Below are positions 40,026-64,000 of a stretch of 64,000 nucleotides of DNA, one piece after another. The notes beneath the pieces are model-generated. The model worked only from the letters and a program-made list of their open reading frames with translations, had not been told where the DNA came from and did not search any database. Position numbers and translations under genes: made by a program. Where the stretch lies: NCBI RefSeq assembly GCF_024105655.1, contig NZ_JAAAMH010000008.1, forward strand, positions 124,001-188,000, read 5' to 3'. Each line of letters begins with the position of its first letter. Positions within the stretch are counted from its first letter, which is position 1. Origin of the DNA: Aliihoeflea sp. 40Bstr573 (GTDB taxonomy: Bacteria; Pseudomonadota; Alphaproteobacteria; Rhizobiales; Rhizobiaceae).

Positions 40026-40098
40026 GTGGACCGACAGCGCCGTCATCCACACGAGGCAAGGAAGCCTGAGCACACCGGCTGGTGGCTCGGGTTTTTTT
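40026..40098 (+). promoter_or_regulatory. ANTAR dual-hexaloop antiterminator leader of the amide transporter operon
   Basis: Hairpin P1 has stems GTGGA/TCCAC (40026-40030, 40046-40050) and GAC/GTC (40033-40035, 40042-40044) with hexaloop AGCGCC (40036-40041). Hairpin P2 has stem AGGC/GCCT (40054-40057, 40064-40067) with hexaloop AAGGAA (40058-40063). Both loops have A at position 1 and G at position 4, the pair read by ANTAR proteins. The P2 3' arm overlaps the 5' arm of a terminator (40065-40076 with 40081-40091, one bulge) followed by seven T. P2 and terminator exclude each other. AmiR (55323-55943) is the likely ligand. Confidence 0.8.
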
Positions 40099-40228
40099 GT
40101 TCCGACGAGGCTGTCGGAACTCCTTCGACCGAATTGACCTGCTGATCTGCCGCTGCGCGTCGCCGCGCCGGCACATGCATCCCTTTACCCAGAAAAACAC
40201 CACCAACCTCCAGAGGCGGAGCACACGC

Positions 40229-41482: not shown

Positions 41483-41488
41483 CCGCGT

Positions 41489-41520
41489 GGCGGACGGCGT
41501 CCTGCACCGCGCCGTCCGCC
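41489..41520 (+). other. Intercistronic hairpin after the binding-protein gene
   Basis: GGCGGACGGCG (41489-41499) pairs perfectly with CGCCGTCCGCC (41510-41520) over a 10-base loop, with no T-run. It probably protects the binding-protein mRNA or partly reduces transcription into the permease genes, as at choX/choW. Confidence 0.55.
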
Positions 41521-41612
41521 GTCTTCCGCATGCCGGCCTGACAGGGCCCGGCTTTGTCGCGGCGCCGCTCGGGCGCCCGCACCGAAACGGATCAAGATCG
41601 GGAAGGTCCGCC

Positions 41613-42506: not shown

Positions 42507-42509
42507 GCG

Positions 42510-43661: not shown

Positions 43662-43670
43662 GAGGCGAAG

Positions 43671-44420: not shown

Positions 44421-45112
44421 TGCTGAAGCTCGACAAGGTGAACAGCTTCTACGGCCGCAGCCACGCCCTGCACGACCTGTCGCTTTCGATCCCGAAGGGA
44501 CAGATCACGGCCATCGTCGGTCGCAACGGTACCGGCAAGACGACGCTGCTCAAGACGATCATGGGGCTAACCGTGAAGTCGACGGGCGCGATCGACCTCG
44601 ACGGCACAGACCTCTCCGCCCAGCCGACCTTCCGCCGCGCCCGCGCGGGGATCGCCTATGTGCCGCAAGGCCGGCAGATCATCCCGGACTTCACGGTGCG
44701 CGAGAACATCCTGATGGGCGGCTTCGCCTCGACATCCGGCCGCCAGGTGCCGGCGCTGGTGGGCGCGCTCTTCCCCTATCTGACCGAGAACATGGAGCGG
44801 CCGGGCGGCCTCCTGTCTGGCGGCCAGCAGCAGCAGCTCGCCATCGCCCGGGCGCTGGCGGCGAATCCTCAGATCCTGCTGCTCGATGAGCCGACCGAGG
44901 GCATCCAGCCCAACATCGTCGAGGACATCCAGAACATCATCATCCGCCTCAACCGCGACGAAGGCCTGTCGATCGTGCTAGTCGAGCAGAACGTCGCCTT
45001 CGCGCGACGGGCCGGACATCACTTCGCCATGCTGGAGAAGGGGCGCGCCGTGGCGGCCGGACCGATCGACAGCCTGACCGACGAACTTATCCATCAACAC
45101 ATCGCCGTCTAG
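44420..45112 (+). CDS. urtE: Amide/urea ABC transporter ATP-binding protein (UrtE/LivF type)
   Basis: The 230-residue ATPase has Walker [16 protein letters not shown]-loop [16 protein letters not shown], signature [15 protein letters not shown], Walker [15 protein letters not shown] and switch [10 protein letters not shown]. The form is standard for LivF/UrtE. It is followed 28 bases later by amiE, linking uptake directly to amide hydrolysis. Confidence 0.92.
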
Positions 45113-45140
45113 CGACAGAACAACCAAGGGAGTTCCCAGT

Positions 45141-46181
45141 ATGCAACATGGTGACATCGTTTCGAGCAAGGATTCCGTCGGCGTTGCCGTCGTCAACTAC
45201 AAGATGCCGCGGCTGCACACCAAGGCCGAGGTGCTCGCCAATGCGCACAAGATCGCCGACATGCTCATTGGCATGAAGCAGGGCCTGCCCGGCATGGACC
45301 TGGTGATCTTCCCCGAATACTCGACCCACGGCATCATGTACGACCCCAAGGAGATGTACGAGACCGCCTCGCAGATCCCCGGGGAGGAGACCGAAATCTT
45401 CGCCGAGGCCTGCCGCGCGGCCAAGGTATGGGGCGTCTTCTCGCTGACAGGCGAGCGTCATGAGGCGCACCCCAACAAGGCGCCCTACAACACGCTGATC
45501 CTGATGAACGACAAGGGCGAGATCGTCCAGAAGTACCGCAAGATCATGCCATGGGTGCCGATCGAGGGCTGGTATCCCGGCGACTGCACCTATGTGTCGG
45601 AAGGCCCGAAGGGCATGAAGATCAGCCTGATTATCTGCGACGACGGCAATTATCCGGAAATCTGGCGCGACTGCGCGATGAAGGGCGCCGAGCTGATCAT
45701 CCGCTGCCAGGGCTACATGTATCCGGCCAAGGAGCAACAGATCGTCATGGCCAAGGCGATGGCCTGGGCCAACAACAGCTATGTCGCCGTCGCCAATGCC
45801 GCAGGCTTCGACGGTGTCTATACCTATTTCGGCCACTCCGCGATCATCGGCTTCGATGGGCGCTCGCTGGGCGAATGCGGCACGGAAGAGATGGGCATCC
45901 AGTTCGCCCAGCTCTCGGTGCCGCTGATCCGTGAGGCGCGCGCCAAGGGCCAGGCGCAGAACCACCTCTACAAGCTGCTGCACCGCGGCTACACCGGCAT
46001 GATCAACTCCGGCGAGGATCCGCGCGGCACCTGTGCCCTGCCGTTCGAATTCTACCGCAAATGGACCAACGACCCGGAAGGCACGCGCGACATGGTCGAG
46101 GCCATGACGCGCAGCGCGCCGGGCGTCGAGGACAGCCCGATCGAGGGCATTCCCACCAAGGTTGCGGCGGGCCATCGCTAG
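45141..46181 (+). CDS. amiE: Aliphatic amidase
   Basis: The 346-residue protein is a nitrilase-superfamily aliphatic amidase, almost collinear with Pseudomonas AmiE. The catalytic triad is Glu59 (VIFPEYST), Lys134 (QKYRKIMPW) and Cys166 ([10 protein letters not shown]), at the standard positions. It hydrolyses short amides such as acetamide and formamide to acid plus ammonia in the cytoplasm. GGGAG precedes the ATG. It lies behind the amide transporter and is controlled, by inference, through the ANTAR leader at 40026 via AmiC/AmiR. Confidence 0.95.
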
Positions 46182-46248
46182 AGCAACACGGCGTCCCGCG
46201 TCGGCGAAGACCGGCGCGGGACGAACTCGGACGATGACGGCAGGTGCG

Positions 46249-47046
46249 ATGAGCCTCGACCAGTACCGCATAGACCAGCAGCCGTTCTACGCGCCGGTCG
46301 GCAACGAGATCGCCTATTTCGAGGCGGCCTATGCCGAGCGCGTGCCGGTTATGCTGAAGGGCCCCACCGGCTGCGGCAAGACGCGGTTCGTGGAGCATAT
46401 GGCGTGGAAGCTCGGCCGGCCGCTGGTCACCGTCGCCTGCCACGAGGACATGACGGCTGCCGATCTCGTCGGCCGCTTCCTGCTCGAGGGTGGCGACACG
46501 GTCTGGAAGGACGGCCCGCTGACGGAGGCTGTGCGCGGCGGCGCTATCTGCTATCTCGACGAGATCGTGGAGGCGCGGCAGGACACGACGGTGGTCATCC
46601 ATCCGCTGACCGACCAGCGCCGCGCGCTGCCGCTCGAGAAGCGCAACGAGCTGGTCACCGCGCATCCCGATTTCTTCCTCGTGATCTCCTACAACCCCGG
46701 CTACCAGAGCGCGGTGAAGGACCTCAAGGAATCGACGAAGCAGCGGTTTGCGGCGATCGACTTCACCTATGCCGATCCAGCCCGCGAACGCGCCATCGTG
46801 GCGGCCGAAGCAGGCATCGAGGATGAGCTTGCCGGCCGGTTGGTCGCCATCGCGGCCGCGTCGCGCAATCTGTCGGGCAAGGGCCTCGACGAAGGCGCAT
46901 CGACACGCACGCTGATCCGCGCCGGTCGACTGATCGCGCGCGGCATCGCCCCGACGGACGCCTGCGAACTCGCGATCGTCTCGCCGCTGACCGACGATGC
47001 GGATCTGCGCGGCGCGTTGCGCTCCGCGGTGGCGGCGTGCCTCTGA
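46249..47046 (+). CDS. MoxR-family AAA+ ATPase (CbbQ/NorQ-like)
   Basis: The 265-residue AAA+ protein has Walker [12 protein letters not shown] (about residues 37-47), Walker [12 protein letters not shown] and the sensor-1 region [12 protein letters not shown], with a C-terminal CbbQ-type domain. CbbQ/NorQ proteins work with a VWA partner to insert metals into or remodel a client enzyme. Here it sits between amiE and a VWA gene and would replace the AmiB chaperone of Pseudomonas; the client (amidase or urease) is unknown. The start at 46249 follows AGGTG; 46234 is an alternative. Confidence 0.85.
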
Positions 47047-49340
47047 GCGCGACAGCCGAGGCCAGCGAGACGGGCGCGGCGGATGCCGACCCGATGGAGC
47101 GCGAGCTGCGCATGCGGCCTGCCCTTCTCGATGCCTATCGCGCCGCCCGTCACGACATCCGCCGCCACCTTGCACCTGCGGACATCGCGCGATGGTCTGA
47201 CGCGATGCTGCGCCTCTACCGCGCCAATGCCGGACCGGCGCTTCTGGGGAACCTGTGGACCCTCCAGCGGCGTGTCGCGGCGCATGCCTCACCGGATACG
47301 CTGCTCTCGATTTCCAGCGCGTCGCGGGAACTCTGTCTGCACGGCGGTGCGCGCGGCACCGCGCAGCTTGTGGATGCGGTCGGCATGCGCCTGACGTTTG
47401 GCGACGACGGTGCGGTCTGGGCGCAGTTCCTGGCCGGTGTCGCCGCGCTCGCACCGCGCGCACCGGAACTCGCCGGCGCGCTGGCCGAGACGCTGCCTGC
47501 TCTTGCCGAGGCGCTCGATCCGCCGGATATGGTCGGCTGGGCCGAGGATGCGCTGCGGCTCTATCCGTTGGACCGCCGCCGCCGGTTGGCCTATCTGCGG
47601 CTGGACGACCCGATGGCGCGGCAGCGCCTCTCCGCCCATGAGGGCGCGGCGCGGTTCGACGCCCACCGCAATCGTCTCGCCTATCTCGCCCGCGCCCTGT
47701 TCGAGCGCGAGTTGCAGACCCAGACGCTCGCCGCGCGCGGCCCCCGCGCCTACGCCCGCACCCGGCTCGCAGGCAGCGTCGTGCTCATGCCGGAGCTGGC
47801 GCCGCGCCTGCCATCGGCACAGGCGGAGCGCTTCTTCGAGGCAGCAGTGCTCCATGCGCTCGCGCATCAGGCGTTCACATCGCATCGCTTCGCGGTTGGG
47901 AAGATGAAACCCTTGCAGCTCGCGCTGGTCTCGCTGCTGGAAGATGCGCGTGTCGAGCGGTTGGCGATGCAACGCTTTCCGGGCCTGGCGCGGCTCTGGC
48001 TGCCCTTCCACACGGCCCGGCCGATGCGCGCGCGGTCGTCCGGCGCGCTGCTGGCACGACTGGCCCGAACGCTGGCCGACCAGTCGGTGGAGGATGACGA
48101 CCAATGGGTGCGCAAGGGCAGCAGTTTGTTCGAACAGGCGTTCGCCGAGAGGCCGCATGATCAGTCCTTTTGCGAAGTGATCGTGCGTGTCCTTGGGCAC
48201 GATCTGGGCCAGATGCGCATTCCGTTCGATGCGAAATCCTATCTGGTGGACCCCGCCTACCGCGACGACGGGCTCGGCCTGTTCGAGCTCGACGATCCTG
48301 AGGACGCCGACCCGGATACGCTCGACATCATGCTCGATGCGGCGCGCATGGAGCCCGGACGGACGGACGACGGCGCCGGCGATGACAGCGGTGCGGAAGC
48401 TGCCCGCAGCCGCGCCGCCGAGGCGGAGGCTGACAAGGGTCCGCTGCTCGGACATTATCCCGAATGGGACCACCGCCTGCACACCGACACGATGGCGCTG
48501 ACCAGCGTGTATGCCGAGGAACTCGCGGCCCTGCAGCGCCCGCATTGGCTGAACCGCGAGATCGATGCCCGCCGGCGCGAGACGAGCCGCATCGGCGCGA
48601 TGGTGCGGCGTGCGCGCATGGGGCCGGCGAGGCGGCTGAAGAAGCGGCTCGACGGCGACGATCTCGATCTGGACGCGCTGGTCGAGATGACGGTCGCCCG
48701 GCGCAGCGGCGAAACGCCAGATCCGCGCATCTATACCGTCAAGCGGCGCACCGAGCGCAACATCTCCATGGCGCTGCTGATCGATACGTCGGAATCGACG
48801 GCAGCACATGTCGCGGCCAGCGGTGGCACGATCCTCCAGACGGCCGCGGTGGCGACTGGACTGTTCGGTACGGCGCTCGACGAGCTGGGCGACGACTTCG
48901 CCGTCTTCACCTTCTGCTCCGATGGTCCCGACAATGTGCGCCTCGGAGCGGTCAAGGATTTCACAGACGGCTTCGGCGAAGGCATCGACCGGCTGGCGGC
49001 GCTGCGGCCCGGCCTGTCGACGCGGCTGGGCGCGGCTCTACGACATGTGGCGCGGCGCCTGGATGCGCGCCCAAGCCTGCGCAAGGTGATGATCGTGGTG
49101 ACGGACGGAGAGCCTGCCGACCGGGACATCGACGACCCCGACCATCTGGTCGAGGATGCACGTCGGGCGGTTCTTCAAGCGCGCGCGGACGGGCTCGATC
49201 TGTTCTGCGTGGCGCTGGGCAATCATGCCGACCGCGCCGCGAGCCGCGTCTTCGGCCGCCGCAACACGCTGCTGGTGGAGCGTGTCGCGGATCTGCCGTC
49301 GCGGCTGGCCGGGCTCTATTTCCGGCTGACGGTCAACTGA
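47037..49340 (+). CDS. VWA-domain protein (CbbO/NorD-like), partner of the AAA+ ATPase
   Basis: The 767-residue protein has a long helical N-terminal part, an acidic middle section (about residues 415-470, [20 protein letters not shown]) and a C-terminal VWA domain with the MIDAS motif LLIDTSEST (about residue 582) and [10 protein letters not shown]. This is the NorD/CbbO pattern. The GTG start at 47037 overlaps the AAA+ gene by 10 bases, so the pair is coupled. It ends the plus-strand operon and converges with ureJ, 9 bases away. Confidence 0.85.
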
Positions 49341-49349: not shown

Positions 49350-49937
49350 TCAGCCGGCGCCGAGCACCAGGCCGATGCCGGCGAGTGCCGCGACGCCGCC
49401 CAGCAGGCGCGCCGGGAGATTGCCGGCAGCCTTGAGCGCCATGCCCATCACCAGTCCCGACGCATGCAGCAGCGCGGTCGCGAGCAGGAAGCCGCTCGCA
49501 TAGGACAGGCCATTGGCCGAAGCGGGCATTTCCGCGCCGTGTGCGTAGCCATGGAAGATCGCCGACAGACCCACGGCAAGCATCGCCCAAGGCAAGGGCT
49601 GGCGCAGATCGAAGGCGGTCAGCAGGCCGAGCACGACCACTGACAGCGCGATGCCAAGCTCGAACATCGGAATGACAACGCCGGCTGCGCCGAGCATGCC
49701 GCCGACGGCCATCATCGAGACGAACAGCAGCGGCAGGCCCCAGCGCGCGCGACCGCCGATCTGCCAGGCCAGCACACCGACGAGCACCATTGCCATCAGG
49801 TGATCGAGCCCCCCGACCGGGTGGGCCAGGCCGTGGAGAAGGCTGTAGCCATGGTCGCCCTGCGCATGCGCGAAGGCCGTGGCGGGCAGGAGTGCGAAGG
49901 TGGCGGTGAGGCCGAAGCGACGAGTTGTTCGAGTCAT
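49350..49937 (-). CDS. ureJ: HupE/UreJ-family nickel transporter
   Basis: The 195-residue membrane protein has a signal-like N-terminus ending ATAFAHAQGD and the HupE/UreJ motif HGLAHPVGGLDHLMAMVLVG, then FHGYAHGAEMP, both rich in His. These proteins bring nickel across the inner membrane for urease or hydrogenase. It is the last gene of the urease operon, which fits nickel supply for UreC. The start at 49937 gives the signal directly. Confidence 0.9.
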   Translation of the reverse strand: MTRTTRRFGLTATFALLPATAFAHAQGDHGYSLLHGLAHPVGGLDHLMAMVLVGVLAWQIGGRARWGLPLLFVSMMAVGGMLGAAGVVIPMFELGIALSVVVLGLLTAFDLRQPLPWAMLAVGLSAIFHGYAHGAEMPASANGLSYASGFLLATALLHASGLVMGMALKAAGNLPARLLGGVAALAGIGLVLGAG

Positions 49938-49983
49938 GATGCGGGTTCCCTGCTGGATGCCGGTTCTTGAGATACGAGAGAGG

Positions 49984-50862
49984 TCATTTGCGCCTCGGAG
50001 CGGGTGTCCGGCCGTCGAAGGCCGCCTGGACCGATGCGACGAAGGCGGCATTTGCTGCCCGCCGCGATGCCACCGCACTGGTTGCGATGCCACGCACGCA
50101 CCAGCCCGCATCGTTCGGCAGCGCGCTGATGCCGACCAGAATATCGTGAAGCGCCAGCGCGTCGCGAAGCACATCACGTGACGGCAAACGTGCGGCAGGG
50201 CCGAGCAGCAGCGAGGTGCTCACCACCCGCCAGTCCCTGCCCGTCCCGAAGGTCGCGCCGAGCTGCGCGCCAGTCACGACAAAGCGGTCGCGCAGCCGAA
50301 GGCGGCCATTTCGATCATATACGGTGACGTCGTTGCACAGCCTGTCGAAGGCGCCGTTCGCCGCCGCCGGATCGTGCCATGCGAAGGCATCGTGCAGCAG
50401 CACCACCGCATCGGGGTCGAGCCGAAGCTCGATGCGAGCATCCAGCGCCGCTCCGGGAAACAGGATCGCCGGATCCGGCGTGTAGGCGAGATAGCCGTCC
50501 GCCTCGACCTCGATGCGCGTCGTCTGCCGTGCCGGCATGCCGTGGCAGGCATGGACGACGCTTGCGGCCTGCGTAGTGACATGCGCCGCCGCGCCGGCGG
50601 TGACCACCAGGCGGTTGTCGAGCCGATCGTCACGGTAGAGCCCGCCCGACGACGACTGTTGGTAGGCCGTCAGGAGCTCCGGAATGTCGGAATCGAGCCG
50701 GAACGGCCGCGTGAAGTGAAACGGATAGGAGACGAACTGCTCGCCGATGCGGGTGATGTCGCCGTGGCGGTTGAAGGCGAGGTGAAACCGCCCGACACGC
50801 GCCGCCGCATCGAAGCTGTCCGTCGTCATCGCCAAGTCAGCCGGTTGCCAGTGTAGGGTCAT
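49984..50862 (-). CDS. ureD: Urease accessory protein UreD
   Basis: The 292-residue protein has the UreD/UreH pattern: [42 protein letters not shown] and [10 protein letters not shown]. UreD is the platform on which UreF and UreG assemble with apo-urease. Its ATG overlaps the ureG stop (ATGA). Length is normal. Confidence 0.9.
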
Positions 50863-51506
50863 CGGAACAGCAGCTGCTTAGCGATGAGGTCGACGATCTC
50901 CTCTATACCTTCCCGTGCCCGGCAGTTGGTCAGCGCGATCGGCTTGTCGCCGCGCGCGTTGCGGGCATCCGCCAGCATCTGCGGCAGGTCGACGCCGACA
51001 TGGGGCGCCAGGTCCTTCTTGTTGATGACGAGGAGGTCGCACTTCAGCACGCCCGGGCCGTTCTTGCGCGGAATGTCGTCGCCGCCGGCCACGTCGATCA
51101 CGAACATCCACCAGTCGACGAGATCGAGCGAGAAGGTGGAAGCGAGATTGTCGCCGCCGCTTTCGATGAGGATCAGCTCGACATTCGGAAAGATCATCTC
51201 CAGTTCGTCGGCCGCGGCGATGTTGAGCGTCGGGTCCTCGCGGATCACCGTATGCGGACAGGCGCCGGCCTCTACCGCCATCACGCGCTTTGGGTCGATC
51301 AGGCCCGAGCGGCGCAGCCGCTCGGCATCCTCGGCGGTGACGAGATCGTTGGTGACGACGGCGATGGAGATGCCGCGCGCCGCGAAGGCCGGGATCAGCC
51401 GCTCGATCAAGGCTGTCTTGCCCGAACCGACCGGCCCGCCGATGCCGACGCGCGCCGCGCCGACGCGGCTCTTCTCTTGCGAGCCAATCTTGGCCTGAAC
51501 GTTCAT
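50859..51506 (-). CDS. ureG: Urease accessory GTPase UreG
   Basis: The 215-residue SIMIBI-class GTPase has P-loop [11 protein letters not shown] (residues 23-33), the Cys-Pro-His nickel motif in [14 protein letters not shown] and the guanine-specificity NKKD. It delivers nickel to the urease active site using GTP. It lies 3 bases after ureC and overlaps ureD. Confidence 0.95.
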
Positions 51507-51509
51507 CGC

Positions 51510-53222
51510 CTACCTCAGCATATAGCGCTGCGTCAGCGGCAGCTCGCGTGCCGGTTCGCAGGTCGCCAACTCGCCATCGACGAAGACGTCGAAGGTCTGC
51601 GGGTCGACCCGGATGTCGGGGCACAGGTCGTTGTGCAGCATGTCGGCCTTGCCAAGCTTGCGCGTGCCGCGCGCCGGCAGGATCATCTTCGACAGGTCGA
51701 GGCGACCGGCGATGTCGTCCTCGATCGCCAGCGGGTTGACAAAGCAGGCGGAGAGCGCCTGCTTGGCGCGGCCGAAGGCGCCCCATTGCGGGCGCATGAT
51801 CAGCGGCTCGCAGGTCATCAGCGACGCCGCGCTGTCGCCCATGGCGCCCCAGGCGATGAAGCCGCCCTTGACGACGAGTTCGGGCTTGATGCCGAAGAAG
51901 GCGGGACGCCACAGCACGATGTCGGCCAGCTTGCCGTCTTCCAGCGAGCCGATGTGCTCGTGGATGCCGAAGGTGCGCGCGGCGTTGATCGTGTATTTGG
52001 CGATGTAGCGCTTGATGCGCTCGTTGTCGCCGAACTTCGTCGATTCCGTGGGCAGGCGACCGCGCTGCTTCTTCATCTTGTCGGCCAACTGCCAAGTGCG
52101 GCAGATCACCTCGTTGATGCGGCCCATGCCCTGGCTGTCGGAGCCCAGCATGGAGATCGCGCCGATATCGTGCAGCACGTCTTCCGCAGCGATCGTCTGG
52201 GCGCGGATGCGGCTTTCGGCGAAGGCTACGTCCTCGGGAATGGCCGGGTTGAGGTGATGGCACACCATCGTCATGTCGAGATGTTCGTCGAACGTGTTGA
52301 TGGTGTAGGGGTTGGTCGGATTGGTCGAGGACGGCAGGCACCACGGCACGCCGGCCACGCGGATGATGTCCGGCGCATGGCCGCCGCCGGCGCCTTCGGT
52401 GTGGTACATGTGGATGGTACGGCCGTTGATGGCGGCCAGCGTGTCCTCCACGAAACCGGATTCGTTCAGCGTATCGGTGTGGATCTGGACCGGGAAATCC
52501 AGCTCGTCGGCGACGCTGAGGCAGGTGTCGATCGACGCCGGCATCGTACCCCAGTCCTCGTGCAGCTTGAGGCCGAGGCAGCCGGTGCGGATCTGCTCGT
52601 GCAGCGAAGCCGGGCGATGCGAATTGCCGCGGCCGAGGAAGCCGAAATTGATCGGCCACTGTTCCGCCGCCTGCAGCATCTTGCCGACATTGAACGGACC
52701 GCCGCAATCGATGCCCACCGTGATCGGGCCGAGCGAGCCGCCCAGCATGGTGGTGATGCCGGACGAAATGGCGTGTTCGCAGAGCTGCGCGCTGTCGAAA
52801 TGAACGTGTACGTCGATGGCGCCCGCCGTCGCGATCAGCCCTTCGCAATCGCGCACCGTGGTCGCTGCCGACACGACGAGGCGCGGGTCGACGCCGTCCA
52901 TCACGGCGGGATTTCCGGCCTTTCCGAAGCCGACGATCCGGCCGTCGCGGATGCCGAGGTCGCCCTTGACGATGCCCAGCACCGCGTCGATCACGACGAC
53001 GTTGCACAAAAGCATGTCGAGCGCGCCTTCCGCGCTCGTCACGCCGGCCGCGAGCCCCGCGCCGTCGCGCAGCGTCTTGCCGCCGCCATGCAGGCACTCG
53101 TCGCCGTAGACGGCATGGTCCTTCTCGATCACCGCAACCAGCGACGTGTCGCCCAGAACCAGGCCGTCCCCCGTGGTCGGCCCGTACATGGTCGCATATT
53201 CCCGCTTGCTCATTACCGCCAT
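51510..53222 (-). CDS. ureC: Urease subunit alpha (catalytic)
   Basis: The 570-residue protein has all urease alpha hallmarks: the nickel-binding HxH in [16 protein letters not shown], the Lys that becomes carbamylated in [11 protein letters not shown] (about residue 217), [14 protein letters not shown], the flap with the active-site Cys and His in MVCHHLNP, and [11 protein letters not shown]. It hydrolyses urea to ammonia and carbamate. Length is normal. It lies 9 bases after the fused ureAB gene. Confidence 0.97.
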
Positions 53223-53231
53223 GACAGCCCC

Positions 53232-53927
53232 CTATGCGCCCAGAAATCCGCGTGCCTTGGCATTCGCCAGCGCCTTCGCCTTTGCCGCCGGATCGTCGGC
53301 GGCGCCGTCCGTCAGGCCATTCAGTCCCGACAGCACCTTCGCGCCGCCGAATTCCGTCAACGTGACCGACTTCTCCTGGCCCGGCTCGAAGCGCACGGCG
53401 GTGCCGGCGGGGATGTCCAGACGCAGGCCGAACGCTGCCGCGCGGTCGAAACGGAGCGCCTTGTTGACCTCGAAGAAGTGATAGTGGCTGCCGATCTGAA
53501 CCGGCCGGTCGCCGGTGTTGACCACCGTAAGCGTTTCCTTACGCCGCCCTGCATTGATCTCGATCTCCCCGTCGTCGACGACGAGACGGCCGGGTTCCAC
53601 TGTGTCGGCGGGCTTGCCCTCGGCCGGACGCAGCGGCTCATGCACCGTCACCAGTTTCGTTCCATCCGGGAACGTTGCCTCGACCTGCAGCATCGGCAGC
53701 ATGGCGGCGACGCCTTCCATGACATCGTCCTGCGTCAGGATGCGCGAGCCGAAGGACATCATTTCGGCCACGGAGCGGCCGTCGCGTGCGCCTTCGAGGA
53801 TCTCGTCGCAGATGATCGCCACGGCCTCCGGGAAGTTCAGTTTCAGACCGCGCGCACGCCGCTTCCGCGCCAGTTCGGCCGCGGTGTATATCGTGAGCCG
53901 TTCCAGCTCGGTCGGTGTCAGAAGCAT
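53232..53927 (-). CDS. ureAB: Fused urease gamma-beta subunit
   Basis: The 231-residue protein joins urease gamma (residues 1-100, [20 protein letters not shown] through [13 protein letters not shown]) to urease beta (about 101-231, [17 protein letters not shown], then [20 protein letters not shown]). Most bacteria encode these separately; the fusion is known from Helicobacter and some proteobacteria. The ATG at 53927 gives the exact gamma N-terminus; the long upstream open frame is a shadow of ureF. Confidence 0.95.
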
Positions 53928-53971
53928 GACGGTCCCCGTTTCGGTTTCATGCGGTCGGCGCGATTGCGGTG

Positions 53972-54658
53972 TTAGCTCGAGAACAGCCGCTGGCCTGACG
54001 CGTCGGGCATCAGCACGGCGATCTCGGCGAGCGGGATGAAGGCGGCGAGCGGCTCGTCGTCTTCGATGGGGGTTGCGGAGAGCGTCGCCACCAGCGGGTG
54101 GAGCCGCGCGATCGCGGCCTGCGCTTCGAGCGCACCAAGAAGCCCAAGCCGAACCGCCGCCGTCGCCAGTGAGGCGACGCACTGGTAGCCGCTGATCGCC
54201 ACCGCCGCATCCTCGCCCACCCCCAGATCGTGCCAGACGAGCCCCTGGACGACGCACAGATGGCCGGAAGCCTGCCCCGCGCGCACAAGCTTTGCGTAGT
54301 CGTCGGCCGGCGCGCAGCCGAGCCGCCGATGCGCAGTGAGGAAGGCCATGCCGTTGCGCCGCGACCCGTGCCGGAGCACATCGATGGCAGTCGATGCCTC
54401 GACCTCCGCGTCCAGCTCCATGATGCGTGCGAGGTCGCCTTTCATGCGGTGGCTGCGGACCAGTGCGACGCGGTCGGCGCAGGTCCAGCGATGGATGAGC
54501 TGCGTGCGCACATAGGGCTCGAATTCGAAGCCGCCGAACCGGTCCGCCAGCAGCGACGAGGCCTCGAGGCCTTGCGAAAAGGCGAATCCGCCGGAGGGGA
54601 ACGCGCTGTCGGCGTGCTGCATGACAAGCAGAAGGCCGGCGCGGGGATCCGTAGTCAT
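53972..54658 (-). CDS. ureF: Urease accessory protein UreF
   Basis: The 228-residue helical protein has the UreF motif [20 protein letters not shown] and [20 protein letters not shown]. It regulates the GTPase cycle of UreG during nickel insertion. Its start overlaps the ureE stop by 4 bases. Confidence 0.92.
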
Positions 54659-55107
54659 GCGGCGTCCTCAACGAGGCTGACGCGGTGCTCCGATAGCATG
54701 GGCGCAATGCGGTCGAGATAGATCCTGGCGTCGCCGTCCTGCGCGACGAGCAGCATCTCGCCATCGAACCGGACGCGCCAATGTAGGTTGCCGGCATGGT
54801 AGCCGAGCTCCAGCGCGTCGGTGGCGCTGGCGGGACGCAGGCGCAGCCAGCGCTGTTCGCCGGCGCGCACGATCACGGCGCGGTGTTCGTCGAGGTGCAG
54901 CACGGCGCCGTCGGAGAGCTTCTGGTCGCGCGGCAGGGCGATCGCCACGGTCAGTCCGCTTCTCGTCGTCTTCATCAGGCGGTGGCGTTCGAGATCGTCG
55001 CCGGACACCTCCAGCACCTCGACATGCCCATGGTGCCCGACCCGATGGAGGAGTTCGGCCATGTCCGGTTCTGAAATGTTGCCGATCACGGATTCGACAC
55101 GCAGCAT
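54655..55107 (-). CDS. ureE: Urease accessory nickel chaperone UreE
   Basis: The 150-residue protein has the peptide-binding and metal-binding UreE domains, with [20 protein letters not shown] and the nickel-site region [15 protein letters not shown]. There is no His-rich tail. It is the first gene of the urease operon; the ANTAR-type leader with its terminator (55224-55297) lies about 120 bases upstream of its start. Confidence 0.9.
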
Positions 55108-55223
55108 GTTGGCCCTCGCTGAGGCGACGTTGAAACTTCAGGCGCCCGTGGGAGTGGATCCCGAGGCGGAGTGATTGGGAAATCGGCGGTCAGCCTCGAC
55201 CGAGAAAGCTGGCAGCGGAAAAC

Positions 55224-55297
55224 AAAAAAACCCGCCGCTCATGATCCACGAGCAATACGGGCTACACTGCCGCGCAGCCTCCAACGCCATTGTTGAA
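55224..55297 (-). promoter_or_regulatory. ANTAR dual-hexaloop antiterminator between amiR and ureE
   Basis: On the minus strand, P1 is TTCAAC/GTTGGA (55297-55292, 55285-55280) with hexaloop AATGGC. P2 is GGC/GCC (55271-55269, 55262-55260), extendable by a C-G pair past a bulge, with hexaloop AGTGTA. Both loops have A1 and G4. The P2 3' arm overlaps the 5' CCCG (55261-55258) of a terminator: CCCG/CGGG outside, GCTCGTG/CATGAGC inside (55253-55247, 55243-55237), followed by seven T (55230-55224). AmiR would prevent termination and admit polymerase into the urease genes. Confidence 0.75.
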
Positions 55298-55322
55298 CGC
55301 CGCAAGAATACGAGCCGAGGCT

Positions 55323-55943
55323 CTATTCCTTAAGCTTATTGGGGTCGATTCGGGCTGTCAACAACTCGTGGGCATTGATGATCGCGGTCGCCAGTTCGTC
55401 CATCGGGATGCGCTTGGCCATCGCCTGCTGGCGGATCGTCTCATAGGCCTCCCTCTCGTTGAGGCCCTGCGATTCCATCAGGATGTTCTTGGCCTTCAGG
55501 ATCTTGTTGTTTCCGGCCAGCTTGCGTTCGAGCTTGCGCAGGCGCTTGTTCGCCTCCTGGCGCTCGAGCCACAGGGACCGGGCGATTGTGAGGTTCGTCA
55601 GCAGCCCGAACGGCCTGATCGGACGCTCCACGACGGCCAGTGCACCGCATTCCAGCACCACCTGGAGCGTGCCGGGATCCTCATAGGAGGTGACGGCGAT
55701 CAGCGTCGGAGGCACCCGGGTGTTGAAGCTGCACAGTTTGAGAACCTCGCGCCGCCGCTCCTGATCCACCGAGATGAACACAATGTCGGCGCTGGGATTG
55801 ATCGTCTCGGGGAGCGGCCACGTCGTCTCGCATTTGCAGCCCATGCGGTGAAGATGCTCCACCAGTGCATGGCCCTCACTGTCCGGCGCGTGAATGACCT
55901 GGATGTGCAATCCCCGAAAGTCGCGAAGAACCTGAACGGCCAC
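55323..55943 (-). CDS. amiR: ANTAR-domain antiterminator AmiR
   Basis: The 206-residue protein has a degenerate receiver-like N-terminal domain (ADIVFISVDQERRREVLKLC; no phosphorylation site), a coiled linker (LRKLERKLAGNNKILKAKNI) and a C-terminal ANTAR domain (ILMESQGLNEREAYETIRQQ, then AMAKRIPMDELATAII). In Pseudomonas, AmiR binds the amiE leader RNA and stops termination, and is held inactive by AmiC until an amide is bound. It follows amiC by 10 bases in the same operon. Its own downstream region and the leader at 40026 both hold ANTAR-type RNA sites. Confidence 0.92.
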   Translation of the reverse strand: MAVQVLRDFRGLHIQVIHAPDSEGHALVEHLHRMGCKCETTWPLPETINPSADIVFISVDQERRREVLKLCSFNTRVPPTLIAVTSYEDPGTLQVVLECGALAVVERPIRPFGLLTNLTIARSLWLERQEANKRLRKLERKLAGNNKILKAKNILMESQGLNEREAYETIRQQAMAKRIPMDELATAIINAHELLTARIDPNKLKE

Positions 55944-55953: not shown

Positions 55954-57102
55954 CTATGCCCGCCGCACGAAGGGAGCGCTTCCCCAATCGTCCAGGGTCG
56001 GCGCGATAAAGTAGGGGTCGGGTTTCACACGAATCGGCGCTTCCCATAGAATATCGAATGCCCGCTCGGCATTCACGCGCCCGATTCGGGGCCACAACTC
56101 GGTGTGGTGATTGGCTGGATCAATCCGGACCATGCCCTGCGGCGCGTCGAGTTCGATCCCGCCCAACGCGCGGATGAGGTAGTCCGGATTGTCGGTGCCC
56201 GCCTTATCAAGCGCCCGCGCATAGACGTAGACCTGGAAATAGGCCGCCTCAGCACACGCGGTGACCGGTTCGGTGATGCCGAACCTGGCTTTGTAGGCCG
56301 CGACGAACCGCTTTGCGGCTGGGGTCTGGACGGTCTCGAAGAACGGAGCGGAGGAGAGATGCCCCTTCGCCACCTCCGGCTGCATCGTCCTGATCTCGGC
56401 CTCGCTTGTCGTGATTGCTGCGATCGGCATGGCGGCGGCGCTGAAGCCAGCCTCCGCATAGGCCTCGTAGAACATCTTCACGCCCGACCCGACCACGGTT
56501 GAAATGACCGCATCGGGAGCGTGCTTCGATATCTGCTTGATGGCCCGCTTGAAATCGTCGGGCTTGGCGTCCAGCGGCACGTAGATCTCGTCGAGGATCT
56601 TCCCGCGCGCCTGAGTGACGAGATCGGTGATGACCCGGTTGGTCTCGTAGGGAAACACATAGTTCGAGCCGACGAGGATGAAGCGCGACCCGTGATGTTC
56701 CATCAGGTAGCGCGCCAGCTGAAGCGCGCTCTGGTTGGAAGCCGCGCCCGTGTAAAAACACCGCGGCGAATATTCGAAGCCTTCATAGAAGGTAGGATAG
56801 AACAGCAAGCCACGAAAGGCTTCGATCTCGGGCAGGATGGCCTTGCGACATGACGACATGTAGCCGCCGAACACGATCCGCACCCGATCCTCTGCCATCA
56901 GCTTGAAGGCAAGCTCGCGATAGATGCGCGGCGACGCCTTTGGGTCATAGTCAACAAAGCTGATCGGCCGGCCGAGCACGCCGCCCTGCGCATTGATCTC
57001 CTCGATCGCCAGATGGGTGGCGTTCGCCATGGTTGTCTCGACTGCCGACGTGACGCCTTCCCTCGAGAATAGGACACCCACCCTCCAATCTTCTTTCACC
57101 AT
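55954..57102 (-). CDS. amiC: Amide sensor AmiC
   Basis: The 382-residue protein has the type I periplasmic-binding fold (WRVGVLFSREGVTSAVETTM, LLFYPTFYEGFEYSPRCFYTG) but no signal peptide, so it stays in the cytoplasm like Pseudomonas AmiC. It is a paralogue of the binding protein at 40229. It would bind AmiR in the absence of amide and release it when amide binds. The start at 57102 is used because upstream codons cross a terminator hairpin. Confidence 0.9.
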   Translation of the reverse strand: MVKEDWRVGVLFSREGVTSAVETTMANATHLAIEEINAQGGVLGRPISFVDYDPKASPRIYRELAFKLMAEDRVRIVFGGYMSSCRKAILPEIEAFRGLLFYPTFYEGFEYSPRCFYTGAASNQSALQLARYLMEHHGSRFILVGSNYVFPYETNRVITDLVTQARGKILDEIYVPLDAKPDDFKRAIKQISKHAPDAVISTVVGSGVKMFYEAYAEAGFSAAAMPIAAITTSEAEIRTMQPEVAKGHLSSAPFFETVQTPAAKRFVAAYKARFGITEPVTACAEAAYFQVYVYARALDKAGTDNPDYLIRALGGIELDAPQGMVRIDPANHHTELWPRIGRVNAERAFDILWEAPIRVKPDPYFIAPTLDDWGSAPFVRRA

Positions 57103-57125: not shown

Positions 57126-57203
57126 AAAAAGTAAAACCCCCGGTGCACGCCGTGCACGCGGAGGCCTCATCGCCACAAATCTCGAACAATCCCTGTTCTG
57201 AGA
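57126..57203 (-). promoter_or_regulatory. amiC leader with terminator and two hairpins (possible third ANTAR site)
   Basis: On the minus strand, a strong terminator has arms CCTCCG-C-GTGCAC (57164-57152) and GTGCACCGGGGG (57148-57137), then TTTTACTTTTT. Upstream is GGC-GATGAG-GCC (57174-57163), a hexaloop with G4 but not A1, overlapping the terminator arm. Before it lies a long stem (57203-57180) whose loop starts AGGGAT, with A1 and G4 but closable as 5 or 7 bases. The layout copies the other two leaders with weaker motifs, so autoregulation by AmiR is possible. Confidence 0.45.
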
Positions 57204-57429: not shown

Positions 57430-58118
57430 GCAGGCCAGATGCCGGCAACCTCGGCGGCTTCCTGTACCGCACGGTGCCACTGCCGCGACGAGGTCGGATC
57501 GGTGCCGCTGTGTCACGGGAACAGCCAGCGATGGGGCAACATCACGCCCCGCCGCTTCCTTCGCGCCACCACAGTCGCAACAGTTCCAGGAGTTGCGGCG
57601 AAAGCATGGCGTTGCGGTCCTTGCGTCCCTTGCCCTGTTCGACCCGGATCAGCATTCGCGTCGAGTCGATGTCGTCGACTTTGAAATGCGCGACCTCAGA
57701 AACGCGCAGACGCGCGCCATAGGCGACCGACCGCCGCCTTGTATTTGATCGCCGCCTCGAGCAGCCGTGCGGCTTCCTCCACGCTCAGAACGTCGGGCAG
57801 CTTGCGTAGATTGCGGATTATGACCAAAGTTCGCGCGAGATCCCGACGGTTAAGCGTCACCGTGAACAGAAATCGCAGCGCCGAAACTGTGCTGTTGACT
57901 GTGGCCGGCCCCACACCGTTCTCATGCTGGTACAACTGGTAGTGCCGGATGTCCTTGGCGGTTGAGGTGTCAGGAGGACGCCCCAGGAAAGCAGCGAAGC
58001 GACGGACATGTCGAACATAGTCGTGCTGCGTATGGGATCCCAAACCTCGCATCACCAAGTCTTGCTGCATATATTGGCGCAGCGGTGTGATCGGGGCGTC
58101 AGTCTGCAAAGTCGCCAT
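57430..58118 (-). pseudogene. Decayed tyrosine recombinase of the type found with IS91-like elements
   Basis: The N-terminal part (58118 to about 57740) has a SAM-like core-binding domain: MRGLGSHTQHDYVRHVRRFA and GVGPATVNSTVSALRFLFTV. Near 57735 the frame shifts, and the next frame continues RLRVSEVAHFKVDDIDSTRM and VEQGKGRKDRNAMLSPQLL. A second shift near 57555 leads to RGVMLPHRWLFP, then further homology before all trace ends near 57430. The catalytic C-terminus with the Tyr is missing. It marks past insertion activity at the right end of the first element. Confidence 0.75.
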
Positions 58119-58391: not shown

Positions 58392-60068
58392 TCAACAGAT
58401 GAAATTAAGCGCAACACTGTATTGGCGGTAGCGCTCCTCCGCTACCAACGGTGCAGCCCCCACGGGTGCGGCGTCTTCCTGTAGGAACGGGGCCAGCGTC
58501 GCCTCGACCTCGATCGTCATGCATCCATCATCATCGCGATCGAGCGTGATCGATCGGATCAGTTCCCGTACGATCGGCGCAAGCTCGCCCATATCGTCCA
58601 TCAAGTTCAGCGCCATTTCCAGCCGTGCGCATGGCGAGCGGAGAGGGTCAGTCGCTCTTCCCATCAACTTCCCGGCGAAAGCATTGATCGCGGTCGGGTG
58701 CAGGACGACGTTGTTGCCCTTCGGCAGGCTGGCGAGTTCCTGTTTCAGGTCGTCACGCTCTGCGCCCTGCGCCTTCATTCGAGCGTCTATCGCGTCCTGA
58801 TCGCCCTTCCCCGCCATAAGCAAGTCGAGTAGCCGGTCGTTGTCCTTGGCGATGGCGGCTATACGAGCCTCGATCTCCGCACGGCGACGATGCTCGTGCG
58901 CCCCTTGCGCATGTCGGGCCTCGATATAGCGACGAGCATAAATTTCGATTTGTTCGGGGCTGGCGAGTTCCTTCGTGAGGCTTTGAATGACCAGTTCCTC
59001 CACGTCGGCGAGATAGAAGGTCTTCGGATCGGGGCAAGCTCCGCTGTTGACGTGCGCAGAACACCGAATGCGTGTCCGGCCGGACTTGTCGACGCCGGCC
59101 ACGGCCATGCCGGAACCACATGCGCCGCACTTTAGAAGGCCGGACAGGAGACGCTTGGGGCGTTTGTGTATCCCGATGTTATCCGCCCTGCCCCCGTGCG
59201 ACCGTCCGGCCATTAACGCCTGAACGGCTTTGAATAGTTCGTCAGGCAGGATACGCAGTTCGGGAACAGCGGCGGACTTCCAATCGCTTTCGGGATTGGG
59301 CCGGGATACGCGCTTACCGGTCGACGGGTCTTTGATCATCCTGTTCTTGTTCCATACGATGCGGCCCACAAAGATCGGATTACGCAACATGCCTGTGCCC
59401 CGGACCGCGTACCCGACCAAGGCGGATGGCGACCATAGCTTCCCCCGTGGTGGCTTCACATGTTCGGCGTTCAACCGCTTGCATATGGCCCGCGGGGAAA
59501 CGCCCTTGGAGTAGTCCTCAAATATGCGCAGGACGATCGCGGCTTCGTCTTCTACGATGATGGGCTTGCCGGGGTTCGCCGGATCAGGACGGTAGCCATA
59601 CGCTTTCCCGCCAGCCGACAGTCCCTGTTTGATCAGCCCGGTCATGCCGCGCCGGACTTTATGGACATTTTCTTCCCGGAAGAGTTGGGCGAACATCGCC
59701 TTCATTCCCACCATAGCGGTGCTGGCTTTGCCGCCGTGGACTTCGATGATCTCGATGTTGTGGAATAAGAGACGCTTGTAGATGCCCGCCATGTCTTCCA
59801 TGTCGCGTGAAAGTCGGTCCAACGCCTCGACAACAATGACGTTAAACTCGCCCGCGTAGGCGTCCCGAAGCATCCGTTTCAGTTCATGCCGGCCATGCAT
59901 CGATGCGCCCGACACGGCCTTATCGGCGTATGTCGCGACGATCTCCAATCCCTCCCGTTTTGCGAAATCACGGCAGAGATCAAGTTGGTCTTCGGTGCTA
60001 CGCTCGTTTTGACGGTCGGTGGAGAAGCGGGCGTATGCAACTGCCTTGGTCAGTTCGGCTGAAAGCAT
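58392..60068 (-). CDS. Large serine recombinase (integrase of the second element)
   Basis: The 558-residue protein has the catalytic domain AVAYARFSTDRQNERSTEDQ (Ser16) and LSRDMEDM, a recombinase domain (GKAYGYRPDPANPGKPI) and a zinc ribbon (GLLKCGACGSGMAV, later NSGACPDP), then a coiled coil. It is clearly diverged from the recombinase at 21162. The start at 60068 overlaps the stop of the RHH gene (TAATG) and has AGGA at good distance. The C-terminus LVAEERYRQYSVALNFIC crosses the second att site. Confidence 0.92.
   Translation of the reverse strand: MLSAELTKAVAYARFSTDRQNERSTEDQLDLCRDFAKREGLEIVATYADKAVSGASMHGRHELKRMLRDAYAGEFNVIVVEALDRLSRDMEDMAGIYKRLLFHNIEIIEVHGGKASTAMVGMKAMFAQLFREENVHKVRRGMTGLIKQGLSAGGKAYGYRPDPANPGKPIIVEDEAAIVLRIFEDYSKGVSPRAICKRLNAEHVKPPRGKLWSPSALVGYAVRGTGMLRNPIFVGRIVWNKNRMIKDPSTGKRVSRPNPESDWKSAAVPELRILPDELFKAVQALMAGRSHGGRADNIGIHKRPKRLLSGLLKCGACGSGMAVAGVDKSGRTRIRCSAHVNSGACPDPKTFYLADVEELVIQSLTKELASPEQIEIYARRYIEARHAQGAHEHRRRAEIEARIAAIAKDNDRLLDLLMAGKGDQDAIDARMKAQGAERDDLKQELASLPKGNNVVLHPTAINAFAGKLMGRATDPLRSPCARLEMALNLMDDMGELAPIVRELIRSITLDRDDDGCMTIEVEATLAPFLQEDAAPVGAAPLVAEERYRQYSVALNFIC
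58427..58447. other. Second tRNA-derived attachment site (14-bp repeat copy 2)
   Basis: CTCCTCCGCTACCA (58434-58447) is identical to the tRNA-Met 3' end at 21192-21205. Here it is also part of an inverted repeat GGTAGCG (58427-58433) / CGCTACC (58440-58446). It lies inside the 3' end of the second recombinase gene and again encodes VAEE in the same frame. It is read as the junction between two tandem elements. Confidence 0.65.
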
Positions 60069-60238
60069 TACACGCATTCCTTCTTGGAAGTGCTCTCCAG
60101 AACCGCCGCGTTTTTGTAGAGGTGCCGTTTGAGTATCTGGACGAGCTGGCCATTCATGCTTCGACCATCCTCTCTGGCACGCTGCCTCAACAATTCTTTG
60201 AGCGTAGCAGGCAAGCGAACGCGCAAAAGCTCCGTCAT
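60068..60238 (-). CDS. Arc-type ribbon-helix-helix protein, upstream of the recombinase
   Basis: The 56-residue protein has an RHH fold: TELLRVRLPATLKELLRQRA, then GRSMNGQLVQILKRHL. It is translationally coupled to the recombinase by a 1-base overlap. It is divergent from another RHH gene, and the intergenic region has two copies of a palindromic 13-mer. It could regulate integrase expression. Confidence 0.75.
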   Translation of the reverse strand: MTELLRVRLPATLKELLRQRAREDGRSMNGQLVQILKRHLYKNAAVLESTSKKECV

Positions 60239-60264
60239 GATCATTCTCCAATGCCTCACGAAAT

Positions 60265-60329
60265 GTCCACGGTGGACCACAGAAAAGATAATTGGGAGAG
60301 CGGATTGTGGTCAACCCCACGGTGGACCA
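60265..60329. promoter_or_regulatory. Paired operator sites between divergent RHH genes
   Basis: CCACGGTGGACCA occurs at 60267-60279 and 60317-60329, exactly 50 bases apart. The first copy is within the palindrome GTCCAC-G-GTGGAC (60265-60277). They sit between and partly cover the likely promoters of both RHH genes. Confidence 0.6.
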
Positions 60330-60339
60330 TATTTGGCTT

Positions 60340-60609
60340 ATGTCGAGAGAAGACCCCCCACTGCGCATCCGCCTTCCCGCAGCCTTAAAGTCCGCAGTCC
60401 AAGCCCGCGCTGCGGAAAACCGGCGAAGCATGAACGCGGAAATTGTTCGGCGGCTTGAATGGAGCTTGGAAGCCGAACAAGATCATCAGCCGGGGCAAGA
60501 TAGCGTTCGGCGGCTACTGCAAGCAGGCCTTCCGGCAGAAATCACCAATTCAGACCGAATTGCCAAACTTGAAAGGCGTCTTGCCGAACTTGAACGGAAG
60601 TCCAAGTGA
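60340..60609 (+). CDS. Arc-family RHH DNA-binding protein
   Basis: The 89-residue protein has an Arc-type RHH (PPLRIRLPAALKSAVQARAA, then RRSMNAEIVRRLEWSLEAEQ) and a C-terminal coiled coil (RIAKLERRLAELERKSK). The start at 60340 places the RHH at the N-terminus; the open frame extends upstream through the operator. It probably binds the 13-mer repeats. No obvious toxin partner is adjacent. Confidence 0.75.
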   Translation: MSREDPPLRIRLPAALKSAVQARAAENRRSMNAEIVRRLEWSLEAEQDHQPGQDSVRRLLQAGLPAEITNSDRIAKLERRLAELERKSK

Positions 60610-62176: not shown

Positions 62177-64000
62177 TTAATGCGCCGTTGCAGCAACCTC
62201 TCTGAGGATCACCTCGGCTTGCGCCAGCACGGTCTGGATGGCTTCCTGCTCCAGATCGGGCGGGTAGCCGTACTTCTTGAGGATGCGCTTGACGAGCACG
62301 CGCATTCGGGCACGGGCACTCGCCCTATGGTGCCAATCGACGGTGGCTGAGCCCCGCATCTGCTCCACCAACTCGTGCGCAATGATACGCAGCTTATCGC
62401 TGCCCATAGCCTCGACCGCGCTGTCGTTCTCAGCCAAGGCGTCGTAGAAGGCGAGTTCCTCGGGTGACAGGCCGTGCTCCTCGCCACGGGCGGCAGATGC
62501 CTTGATGTCCTTCGCCAGCGCAATCAGTTCCTGTATCATCTCGACTGTGGAGATGGCGTTGGCATGGTATCGGGCGACCGCCTCCTCCAACCGCTGCGAG
62601 AAAGTCTTCGCCTCCACGACGTTCGAGCGTGACCGACTTCTGATCTCGCCGTTGAGCAGCTTCTTCAGCGCCTCCAGCGCGAGGTTCTTCTTCTCCATCT
62701 GCTGGAGTTCGGCAAGGAACTCGTCCGACAGGATCGACAAGTCGGGCGACTGGATGCCCGCCGCTTGCAGGATGTCCACGATCTCGGCGTTGGCGACGGC
62801 CTGATTAAGCAACTGCTCCACGATCAGGGACTTCGCCCGGTCCGACATCCTGCCGGTGGCGGTGGTCTTCACGAGTGCCGCCCGCACCGCCTGAAAGAAG
62901 CCGACTTCATCACGGATGGACCGCGCCTCGTCGCTGGCCGAGGCGAGCGCGTATGCCTTGCTCAACTCCAGCACGGCGTCCTGATAGCGCCTATGGGCCT
63001 TCTTCTTGTCCTCGGCGCTCGTGACCTTGGCAGCCTCCCGCTCCTGCGATTTCAGTATCCAGTCGATGGCGTCGGCAAGCGCGGCAAGACGCTGCTGCGG
63101 CAGGCCGGTGATCCCAAGGCTGTAGTTGTGACCGTGGAACATGCCGCGCACGATCTCGTACTTCTCCATCAGCACCGCGACGGCTTCTTTCTCGTCGATG
63201 CCGGTCTTGTCGCGGTCTGACGCCGTGTACTGGCTGAGCGCCTTCTTCAGGTTCTGGGCGATGCCGATGTAGTCCACGATGAGGCCACCGGGCTTTTCCC
63301 TGAACACCCGGTTGACGCGAGCGATGGCCTGCATCAGCCCATGACCGCGCATGGGCTTGTCAATGTACATGGTGTGAATGCACGGCGCGTCGAAGCCGGT
63401 CAGCCACATGTCGCGCACGATCACCAGCTTGAGCGGATCGTTCGGATCACGAGCACGCTTAGCGAGATCGTCACGCCGCTTCTTGTTGCCGATATGCGGC
63501 TGCCAGTCCAAGGGATCGGAGGCCGAGCCGGTCATCACGATCTTGATCCCGCCTTTGTCGTCATCGTCGGAATGCCAGTCAGGGCGAAGGGCCACGATCT
63601 GCTTGTAGAGGTCAACGCAGATGCGGCGGCTCATGCACACCGCCATTGCTTTGCCGGGCATGCCCTCAATCCGTGCGTCCAGATGTTCGACCAGATCGGC
63701 GGCAATCTGCGACAGACGCTTTTCCGAGCCGACCAGCCGCTCCACGGTCGTCCATTTCGCCTTCTGCTTCTCCTGCTCGCTCAGCGTCTCGTCTTCGAGT
63801 ATTGCCTCGATCTCGGCGTCGATCTTTGGCTTCTCGTCCTCGTCCAGTTCGATACGGGCGAGCCTGCTCTCATAGAAGATCGGCACCGTGGCCCCGTCCT
63901 CAACGGCGCGGCTGATGTCATAAACGTCGATGTACCCGCCGAAGATCGCGGGCGTGTTCACATCCTCTGCCTCAATCGGCGTGCCTGTGAAGCCGATGAA
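62177..64000 (-). CDS. hsdR: Type I restriction enzyme HsdR, C-terminal part (5' end outside window)
   Basis: The visible 608 or so codons include [11 protein letters not shown] (helicase motif III, read at the very right edge), [20 protein letters not shown], the motif V/VI region [20 protein letters not shown] and [20 protein letters not shown], then the helical C-terminal domain of HsdR. HsdR is the ATP-driven translocase and nuclease subunit of type I restriction. The nuclease domain and the hsdM/hsdS genes, if present, are beyond the window. Its stop is 11 bases from the broken gene downstream. Confidence 0.92.

Follow-up and report, generated by a model that had tools for sequence, protein, structure and literature searches.

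One of the closest described systems is the amiE leader of Pseudomonas aeruginosa, which acts with the sensor AmiC and the antiterminator AmiR. As described in the available portion of PMC3369931, this leader has dual hexaloops with A at position 1 and G at position 4 (A1/G4), and an overlapping terminator. The eut leaders of Enterococcus faecalis, whose antiterminator is EutV, have the same two hexaloop hairpins, P1 and P2, and the same overlap with a terminator (available parts of PMC3369931 and PMC8934654). Crystallography of EutV bound to RNA shows G4 stacked on Tyr164 and no specific contact of A1 (PMC8934654, accessible sections). ANTAR RNAs have been reported upstream of nitrogen genes, including urea transporters (Ramesh et al. 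2012, PMC3369931), and urease is not named among the downstream genes in the available main text of that paper. Plasmid acetamidase operons with amiC, amiR, amiE and an ABC transporter have also been described; according to the accessible part of that source, amiCR lie beside the amidase and, in one strain, transporter genes, urease is chromosomal and separate, and an RNA leader was not analyzed (PMC13209695). In the open-licence literature, to the extent that its texts were available, we found no published description of ANTAR or AmiC/AmiR control of urease, which is weak evidence of novelty.

The DNA analyzed here (the window, 64 kb) contains an AmiC/AmiR pair of the same sensor and antiterminator families as the P. 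aeruginosa pair, and an ANTAR-type leader with dual A1/G4 hexaloops and an overlapping terminator (55224-55301, minus strand) lies between amiR and the operon ureEFABCGDJ. The first gene after the leader is ureE (54655-55107, minus; NCBIfam), and it is followed by ureF, a fused ureAB, ureC, ureG, ureD and ureJ (49350-54658, minus; NCBIfam and Shinella homologues), where ureF and ureD have no NCBIfam match and were named by position and annotated Shinella homologues. Another ANTAR leader, the first in the window (40026-40120, plus; motif scan and covariance model), precedes the convergent operon urtABCDE-amiE-cbbQ-cbbO, whose genes for a urtABCDE-type ABC transporter, an aliphatic amidase (amiE) and CbbQ-like AAA and VWA proteins occupy 40229-49340 (plus); the names of urtB to urtE come from annotated Shinella homologues. 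Like the leaders of Ramesh et al., these stand before nitrogen genes, and like the plasmid acetamidase operons, the window has amiCR near an amidase and transporter genes. Unlike those operons, its urease lies beside amiCR. In contrast to the P. aeruginosa leader, the window’s leaders would gate urease and, separately, a urt-type transporter with amiE, and the ureE leader, which has a third hairpin, comes after amiR and probably has its promoter within that gene. We predict that AmiR acts on the ureE leader to bring about transcription antitermination into an accessory urease operon, and that the same AmiR opens the urtA leader. We put the probability of this reading at roughly 0.77.

An earlier sequence-only reading had proposed two A1/G4 hexaloops on the minus strand between amiR and ureE, the second overlapping a terminator with seven T, and had called this the second ANTAR leader of the window. 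Direct reading and coordinates bear out the first two claims, and the motif scan, which places the other leader upstream of urtA, bears out the third. P1, the putative recruitment hairpin, is TTCAAC[AATGGC]GTTGGA (55280-55297, minus; loops in square brackets), and five further pairs are possible beyond a 1x1 mismatch. P2, the putative antitermination hairpin, is GGC[AGTGTA]GCC (55260-55271, minus). Both hairpins were found by the scan and the alignment; they stand in tandem, each with a 6-nt loop on a stem no shorter than 3 bp, and both loops have A1 and G4. The 8-nt linker between them (between 55280 and 55271) is inside the range of 2-25 nt given for ANTAR RNAs in the accessible text of PMC8164766. 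The intrinsic terminator with its T-run (55224-55262, minus; scan and terminator alignment) has a hairpin at 55262-55230 of -18.5 kcal/mol, and its seven T occupy 55230-55224. P2 and the terminator share one arm, 3' in the former and 5' in the latter, which is the overlap expected of an ANTAR leader. P2 is short, with a 3-bp core of -2.8 kcal/mol, and in the three of four folded stretches that contain the whole terminator, the minimum-energy fold has the terminator and not P2. In such modeled folds, this outcome is expected of an antiterminator and is no proof of one.

Similar structures are rare by chance and in the rest of the genome. We scanned both strands of the window for pairs of ANNGNN hexaloops, each on a stem of 3 bp or more, combined with an overlapping terminator that runs into T5. 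There were exactly two matches, one being the ureE leader and the other lying at 40033-40092, upstream of urtA; 100 dinucleotide shuffles of the window gave no match. In the urtA leader, P1 is at 40026-40050, P2 at 40054-40067, the terminator at 40062-40094 and a third hairpin, P3, at 40099-40120 (all plus). A covariance model (R1) was built on 26 leaders, and in its search of the whole genome 150 of 4944 first-look candidates were scored. Among these, the ureE leader had E 9e-11, the urtA leader 5e-10 and the next candidate 0.72. Because both window leaders were among the training rows, the informative part is that nothing else in the genome scores. Across 199 genomes of the family, the model gave weak matches in 6 (E 8e-4 to 5e-3). 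An Rfam scan of the window returned only a tRNA, and no family reached its gathering score on the ureE leader. A second urease is encoded elsewhere in the genome (L129; contig 13, 34000-46000), with separate subunit genes and a UreC 55% identical to that of the window, so the window’s urease is an additional enzyme; no match anywhere on contig 13 was listed by the leader model.

In a profile search, the only ANTAR gene in the genome at E 1e-3 or better was amiR (55323-55943, minus; domain and structure-relative searches), and relaxing the limit to E 10 gave a single further place, at E 2.2. Thus, if any ANTAR protein reads these leaders, it is AmiR. This protein consists of an AmiR_N pseudo-receiver and an ANTAR domain (PF21332, E 2e-33; PF03861, E 1e-14) and matches the AmiR of structure 1qo0 at E 1e-25. 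The adjacent gene, amiC (55954-57102, minus), encodes a sensor of AmiC type with a periplasmic-binding fold; its best solved relative is P. aeruginosa AmiC (1pea; E 6e-95 over query residues 7-375). In contrast, EutV is activated by a histidine kinase, as stated in the available portion of the literature on it. We also compared AmiR with EutV (6wsh) at the residues described as RNA contacts in the accessible sections of PMC8934654. These contacts are partly kept: Tyr164, Arg168, Met172, Arg175 and Lys147 are the same in AmiR, and four others are replaced (Asn173 by Ala, Arg177 by Pro, Lys143 by Asn and Arg142 by Asn).

To compare leaders among relatives, we aligned 29 of them, 27 downstream of amiR and 2 upstream of urtA, omitting near-duplicates (L070, L081, L082 and L105) and distant loci (L097, L100, L103 and L104). 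G4 is present in 28 loops of P1, 29 of P2 and 28 of P3; the corresponding counts for A1 are 25, 10 and 23. The 19 of 29 P2 loops without A1 have T (13) or G (6) at this position. A loose A1 and a kept G4 fit the EutV-RNA contacts reported in the available part of PMC8934654. Because many P2 loops lack A1, a strict A1/G4 scan downstream of amiR matched in only 6 of 41 relative loci (L003, L069, L070, L080, L083 and L104, with P2 placed differently in L003). The strict scan misses the urtA leader of Shinella L069, because one of the three core positions of P1 is unpaired there. In many P2 loops, T1 and A6 could pair and close the loop to a tetraloop, which weakens a strict hexaloop reading. The sequence-only reading had looked to an alignment of this leader in other genomes; G4 has been kept there in P1 and P2, and A1 in P2 has not. 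When P1 was picked automatically as the strongest stem, the choice frequently fell on another hairpin (A1/G4 in 13 of 34), and we used the alignment instead.

The alignment supports the secondary structure. With P1, P2 and P3 taken together, 93.7% of cells are paired in the 29 leaders, compared with 15-61% when the structure is slid along the alignment. Two-sided changes occur at four pairs within the P1 and P3 stems, and the three P2 pairs are invariant, so that covariation is uninformative for them either way. For the terminator, 95.1% of cells are paired in the 29 leaders (33-58% when slid), and its covariation score is above all 500 shuffles. Of five covariation measures, two do not stand out from the shuffles, namely how many pairs change on both sides (146 of 500) and how many pair types occur (64 of 500). 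A strong terminator downstream of amiR was not found in L002, L004, L077, L091, L098, L099 or L101, nor was a terminator found there in the loci L106 and L110, which were added later.

It might be supposed that the structure before ureE serves amiCR as a plain transcription terminator, that ure has its own, unregulated start and that the hexaloops are coincidental. The terminator is indeed strong, with its seven T, and an amiCR-ure arrangement without a leader does exist (L004/L077). Against coincidence, the motif did not arise in the 100 shuffles, G4 has been kept in 28 of 29 P1 and 29 of 29 P2 loops with accompanying covariation, and the only two sites in the genome that match the model both precede amide or urea operons. 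Moreover, the promoter scan had no sigma-70-like entry for the stretch from the T-run to ureE, a weak test given that it also missed the element inside amiR described below. We therefore regard an ordinary terminator as very improbable. The earlier claim that the product of the upstream gene gates urease has indirect support from the anatomy of the leader, from AmiR as the sole ANTAR protein found and from urease as the first operon downstream.

Under AmiR-dependent antitermination, RNA polymerase would start at a promoter lying among the final codons of amiR. As long as inducer is absent, the nascent RNA would form the terminator (55262-55230), and transcription would stop at the seven T. By analogy with P. 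aeruginosa, the binding of a short-chain amide or related compound by AmiC would release AmiR, and an AmiR dimer would bind the hexaloop of P1 and then that of P2. Because P2 uses the 5' arm of the terminator, termination would then fail, and ureEFABCGDJ would be transcribed. AmiR would presumably also open the urtABCDE-amiE leader. Since one AmiR would open both leaders, transporter, amidase and urease would form one regulon of two convergent operons. If this is true, an amide sensor controls a nickel enzyme through a switch in RNA, and the leaders hint at the reason why urt-like, amiE and ure genes move as a group.

The predicted start within amiR comes from a promoter-like element, TTGACA-17-TAAGCT, inside the 3' end of this gene (55333-55361, minus); the TTG codon in its -35 part is conserved among relatives. 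Its -10 hexamer is weak, with 3 of 6 consensus matches. Within the C-terminal ‘LL’ motif of AmiR, the final Leu is encoded by TTG in 29 of the 31 leader loci that have this motif (of 35 in all), which are related loci and not a set of independent events, compared with 70 of 782 (9%) for other Leu codons of the same amiR genes. The TTG starts either TTGAC or TTGAA, and in many loci a TAnnnT, frequently covering the stop codon, lies about 17-18 nt further along. Where a strong terminator is lacking, L002, L004/L077 and L098 have other Leu codons at this position, L091 has TTG even though no leader was found there, and L099 and L101 are not comparable. It is therefore probable, on these sequence features, that the transcript begins just before the leader. 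We also considered a sigma-54-like -24/-12 pattern, which had 62 matches with up to 2 mismatches (73 expected), of which only that at 39958, with 2 mismatches, is near a leader; we rejected it.

It had been suggested that the whole amiC-amiR-ure stretch could be one transcript, in which case ure might be reached mainly by readthrough from an amiC promoter, and the leader would be an internal attenuator. The genes are co-directional with a gap of only 10 nt between amiC and amiR, and some readthrough from amiC is possible. However, the conserved TTG element at the end of amiR implies that readthrough is probably not the main route, and a terminator also lies upstream of amiC (57137-57198, minus; folding). 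We thus consider a long transcript unlikely to be the principal one, and a start inside the end of amiR is preferred. The amiC-upstream terminator is accompanied by degenerate ANTAR-like hairpins, GAAC[AGGGATT]GTTC and GGC[GATGAG]GCC. Because of these loops (one of 7 nt, the other GATGAG), we rejected this region as a third working leader; a canonical counterpart occurs in L002.

We searched for relatives of AmiR in collections with one genome per species and in plasmids, with even draws of 297 genomes from the family, 397 from the order and 385 from the class. An AmiR at least 69% identical was found in 5 of the 297 family genomes, the genome itself included, and in none of the 4 other genomes of the same genus in the draw. 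This patchiness indicates that the locus is accessory. We sampled 34 loci whose AmiR has 48% identity or more, and ureC follows downstream on the same strand in 26 of them. These loci are a sample and not a census, and include near-duplicates (L069/L070, L004/L077, L005/L092/L105 and L079/L081/L082). L006, at 47.7%, falls just under the cut; the many Rhizobium and Agrobacterium plasmid copies (about 51%) have one representative, L072, which is without ure; six Aminobacter plasmid matches are represented by L071; and Variovorax L107, outside the 34-locus count, has no urease in the fetched stretch. The first recognized gene after amiR is urtA in 18 of the 34 loci, amiE in 10 and ureE in 5, with none in L002. 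Usually, then, amiCR is linked to ure with urt and/or amiE genes between them. The ureE-first loci are the window, L069 and L070, which have a leader, and L004/L077, which are one contig with the order amiC-amiR-ureE, a 22-nt gap between amiR and ureE and no leader. Among the loci examined, a leader directly before ureE occurs only in the window and in two Shinella plasmids, the megaplasmids of S. sumterensis and S. oryzae, both of which have the window’s gene order in both operons. The AmiC/AmiR-urease link is therefore a recurrent arrangement, contrary to the earlier view that it is not a standard one, and the leader directly adjoining ureE is a rare form of it. If the proposed control is real, the arrangement recurs across the window’s order (the named relatives are Hyphomicrobiales). 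In many relatives, the CbbQ-like AAA and VWA genes (46252-49340, plus, in the window) likewise lie close to amiE and the urease genes.

The conserved residues for urea binding in UrtA include Trp120, Ser122, Gln144, Tyr190 and Asn246, according to the accessible text of PMC10392092. Mapping these positions by hand through an alignment, we found Tyr, Ser, Tyr, Tyr and Val in the window’s UrtA, which thus departs from the described urea pocket, and Tyr, Ser, Phe, Tyr and Val in AmiC. Trp120, Gln144 and Asn246 occur in none of the 28 UrtA-like rows compared. The window’s UrtA is also below the cut-off of TIGR03407 (422 versus 493 bits), and for an amiE-linked transporter of Bradyrhizobium, amide rather than urea has been inferred (PMC3098086, available part). 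Since three of these five urea residues are absent, ‘urea transporter’ may be a misnomer here. Judging from the AmiC and UrtA pockets, we favor amides over urea as the signal, and the AmiC pocket makes it plausible that the ureE leader is amide-responsive. The UrtA-like protein (40229-41482, plus) is itself probably an amide-binding protein. An alternative is that AmiR does control the leader, with urea or a substituted urea as the signal. This would suit the presence of ureC downstream in 26 of 34 loci, and no amiE is present in the fetched stretches of L071, L075, L076 and L093-L096, where an amide signal would make little sense. The absence of Trp120, Gln144 and Asn246 from AmiC and the associated UrtA proteins, and the amide inferred for the similar amiE-linked transporter, count against it, as far as the available parts of these two sources allow. 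We consider a urea signal the less likely of the two, albeit the most credible of the alternatives weighed here.

The sequence-only reading had not reported a third hairpin, P3, which is a new feature; the available text of PMC8934654 makes no mention of a third hairpin or of three hairpins. In the ureE leader, P3 is CGGTC[GAGGCT]GACCG, downstream of the poly-U (55187-55202, minus; alignment and fold), and in the urtA leader it is TTCCGAC[GAGGCT]GTCGGAA, within 40099-40120 (plus). Both loops are G1/G4, and in that of ureE the energy model closes the loop to a tetraloop via a G-U pair, so that here too a strict hexaloop reading is weakened. The typical form in the aligned leaders is CCGAC[ANNGNN]GTYGG after the poly-U. 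We counted P3 by taking the strongest hexaloop hairpin within 60 nt 3' of the T-run, chosen blind to the loop. It is A1/G4 in 22 of 29 leaders, compared with an average of 0.47 and a maximum of 3 in 200 shuffles, and with 4 of 51 after other strong terminators of the same loci. Adding the distant L097, L100, L103 and L104 (none A1/G4) gives 22 of 33, and an earlier, redundant count was 24 of 33. P3 was seen in 0 of 12 leaders upstream of amiC and not in L109, which has a terminator; betaproteobacterial loci that have it are Paracidovorax L006 and Variovorax L107. When we looked for a fourth hairpin after P3, a shared one was found in L071 and L094-L096 only. In a distant group (L026, L027, L030 and L031; AmiR 25-28% identical), the position of P3 is taken by P1 and P2 of another complete unit. 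Between the distant amiR and urtA there are thus two ANTAR-like units in tandem, at about 2040-2320, and each has a terminator of its own; L028 is less clear, and L104 is the same locus as L026.

Because P3 would be transcribed after the terminator, it should not be able to act on that terminator. It is conserved and yet too late for the termination decision, and so must have another role. We tentatively suggest that these AmiR leaders have three hexaloops and not two: P1 would recruit AmiR, P2 would block termination, and P3, made only after readthrough, would recapture the AmiR dimer, which might then be kept near the polymerase or be titrated, with a damped response. P3 would then be what remains of a tandem array, reduced to a single hexaloop and still under selection. 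A late but conserved hexaloop would let the successive-binding model of ANTAR antitermination be tested directly (PMC8934654, as presented in its available sections). P3 could instead be an inverted repeat in DNA, an operator for some regulator, and several copies are near-perfect palindromes (GCCGAC..GTCGGC). That idea does not sit well with a G-U at one pair in 8 of 29 rows, with the conservation of loop G4 (28 of 29) and A1 (23 of 29) or with a position after the poly-U of AmiR leaders; we think it improbable, and prefer the tentative RNA site.

The region upstream of amiC on the minus strand contains an N-terminal fragment of a tyrosine integrase (57696-58118) and a serine recombinase (58392-60431), which suggests that mobile DNA was inserted beside the cluster. 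Further along, the C-terminal part of a type I restriction enzyme R subunit is encoded at 62177-63961 (minus).
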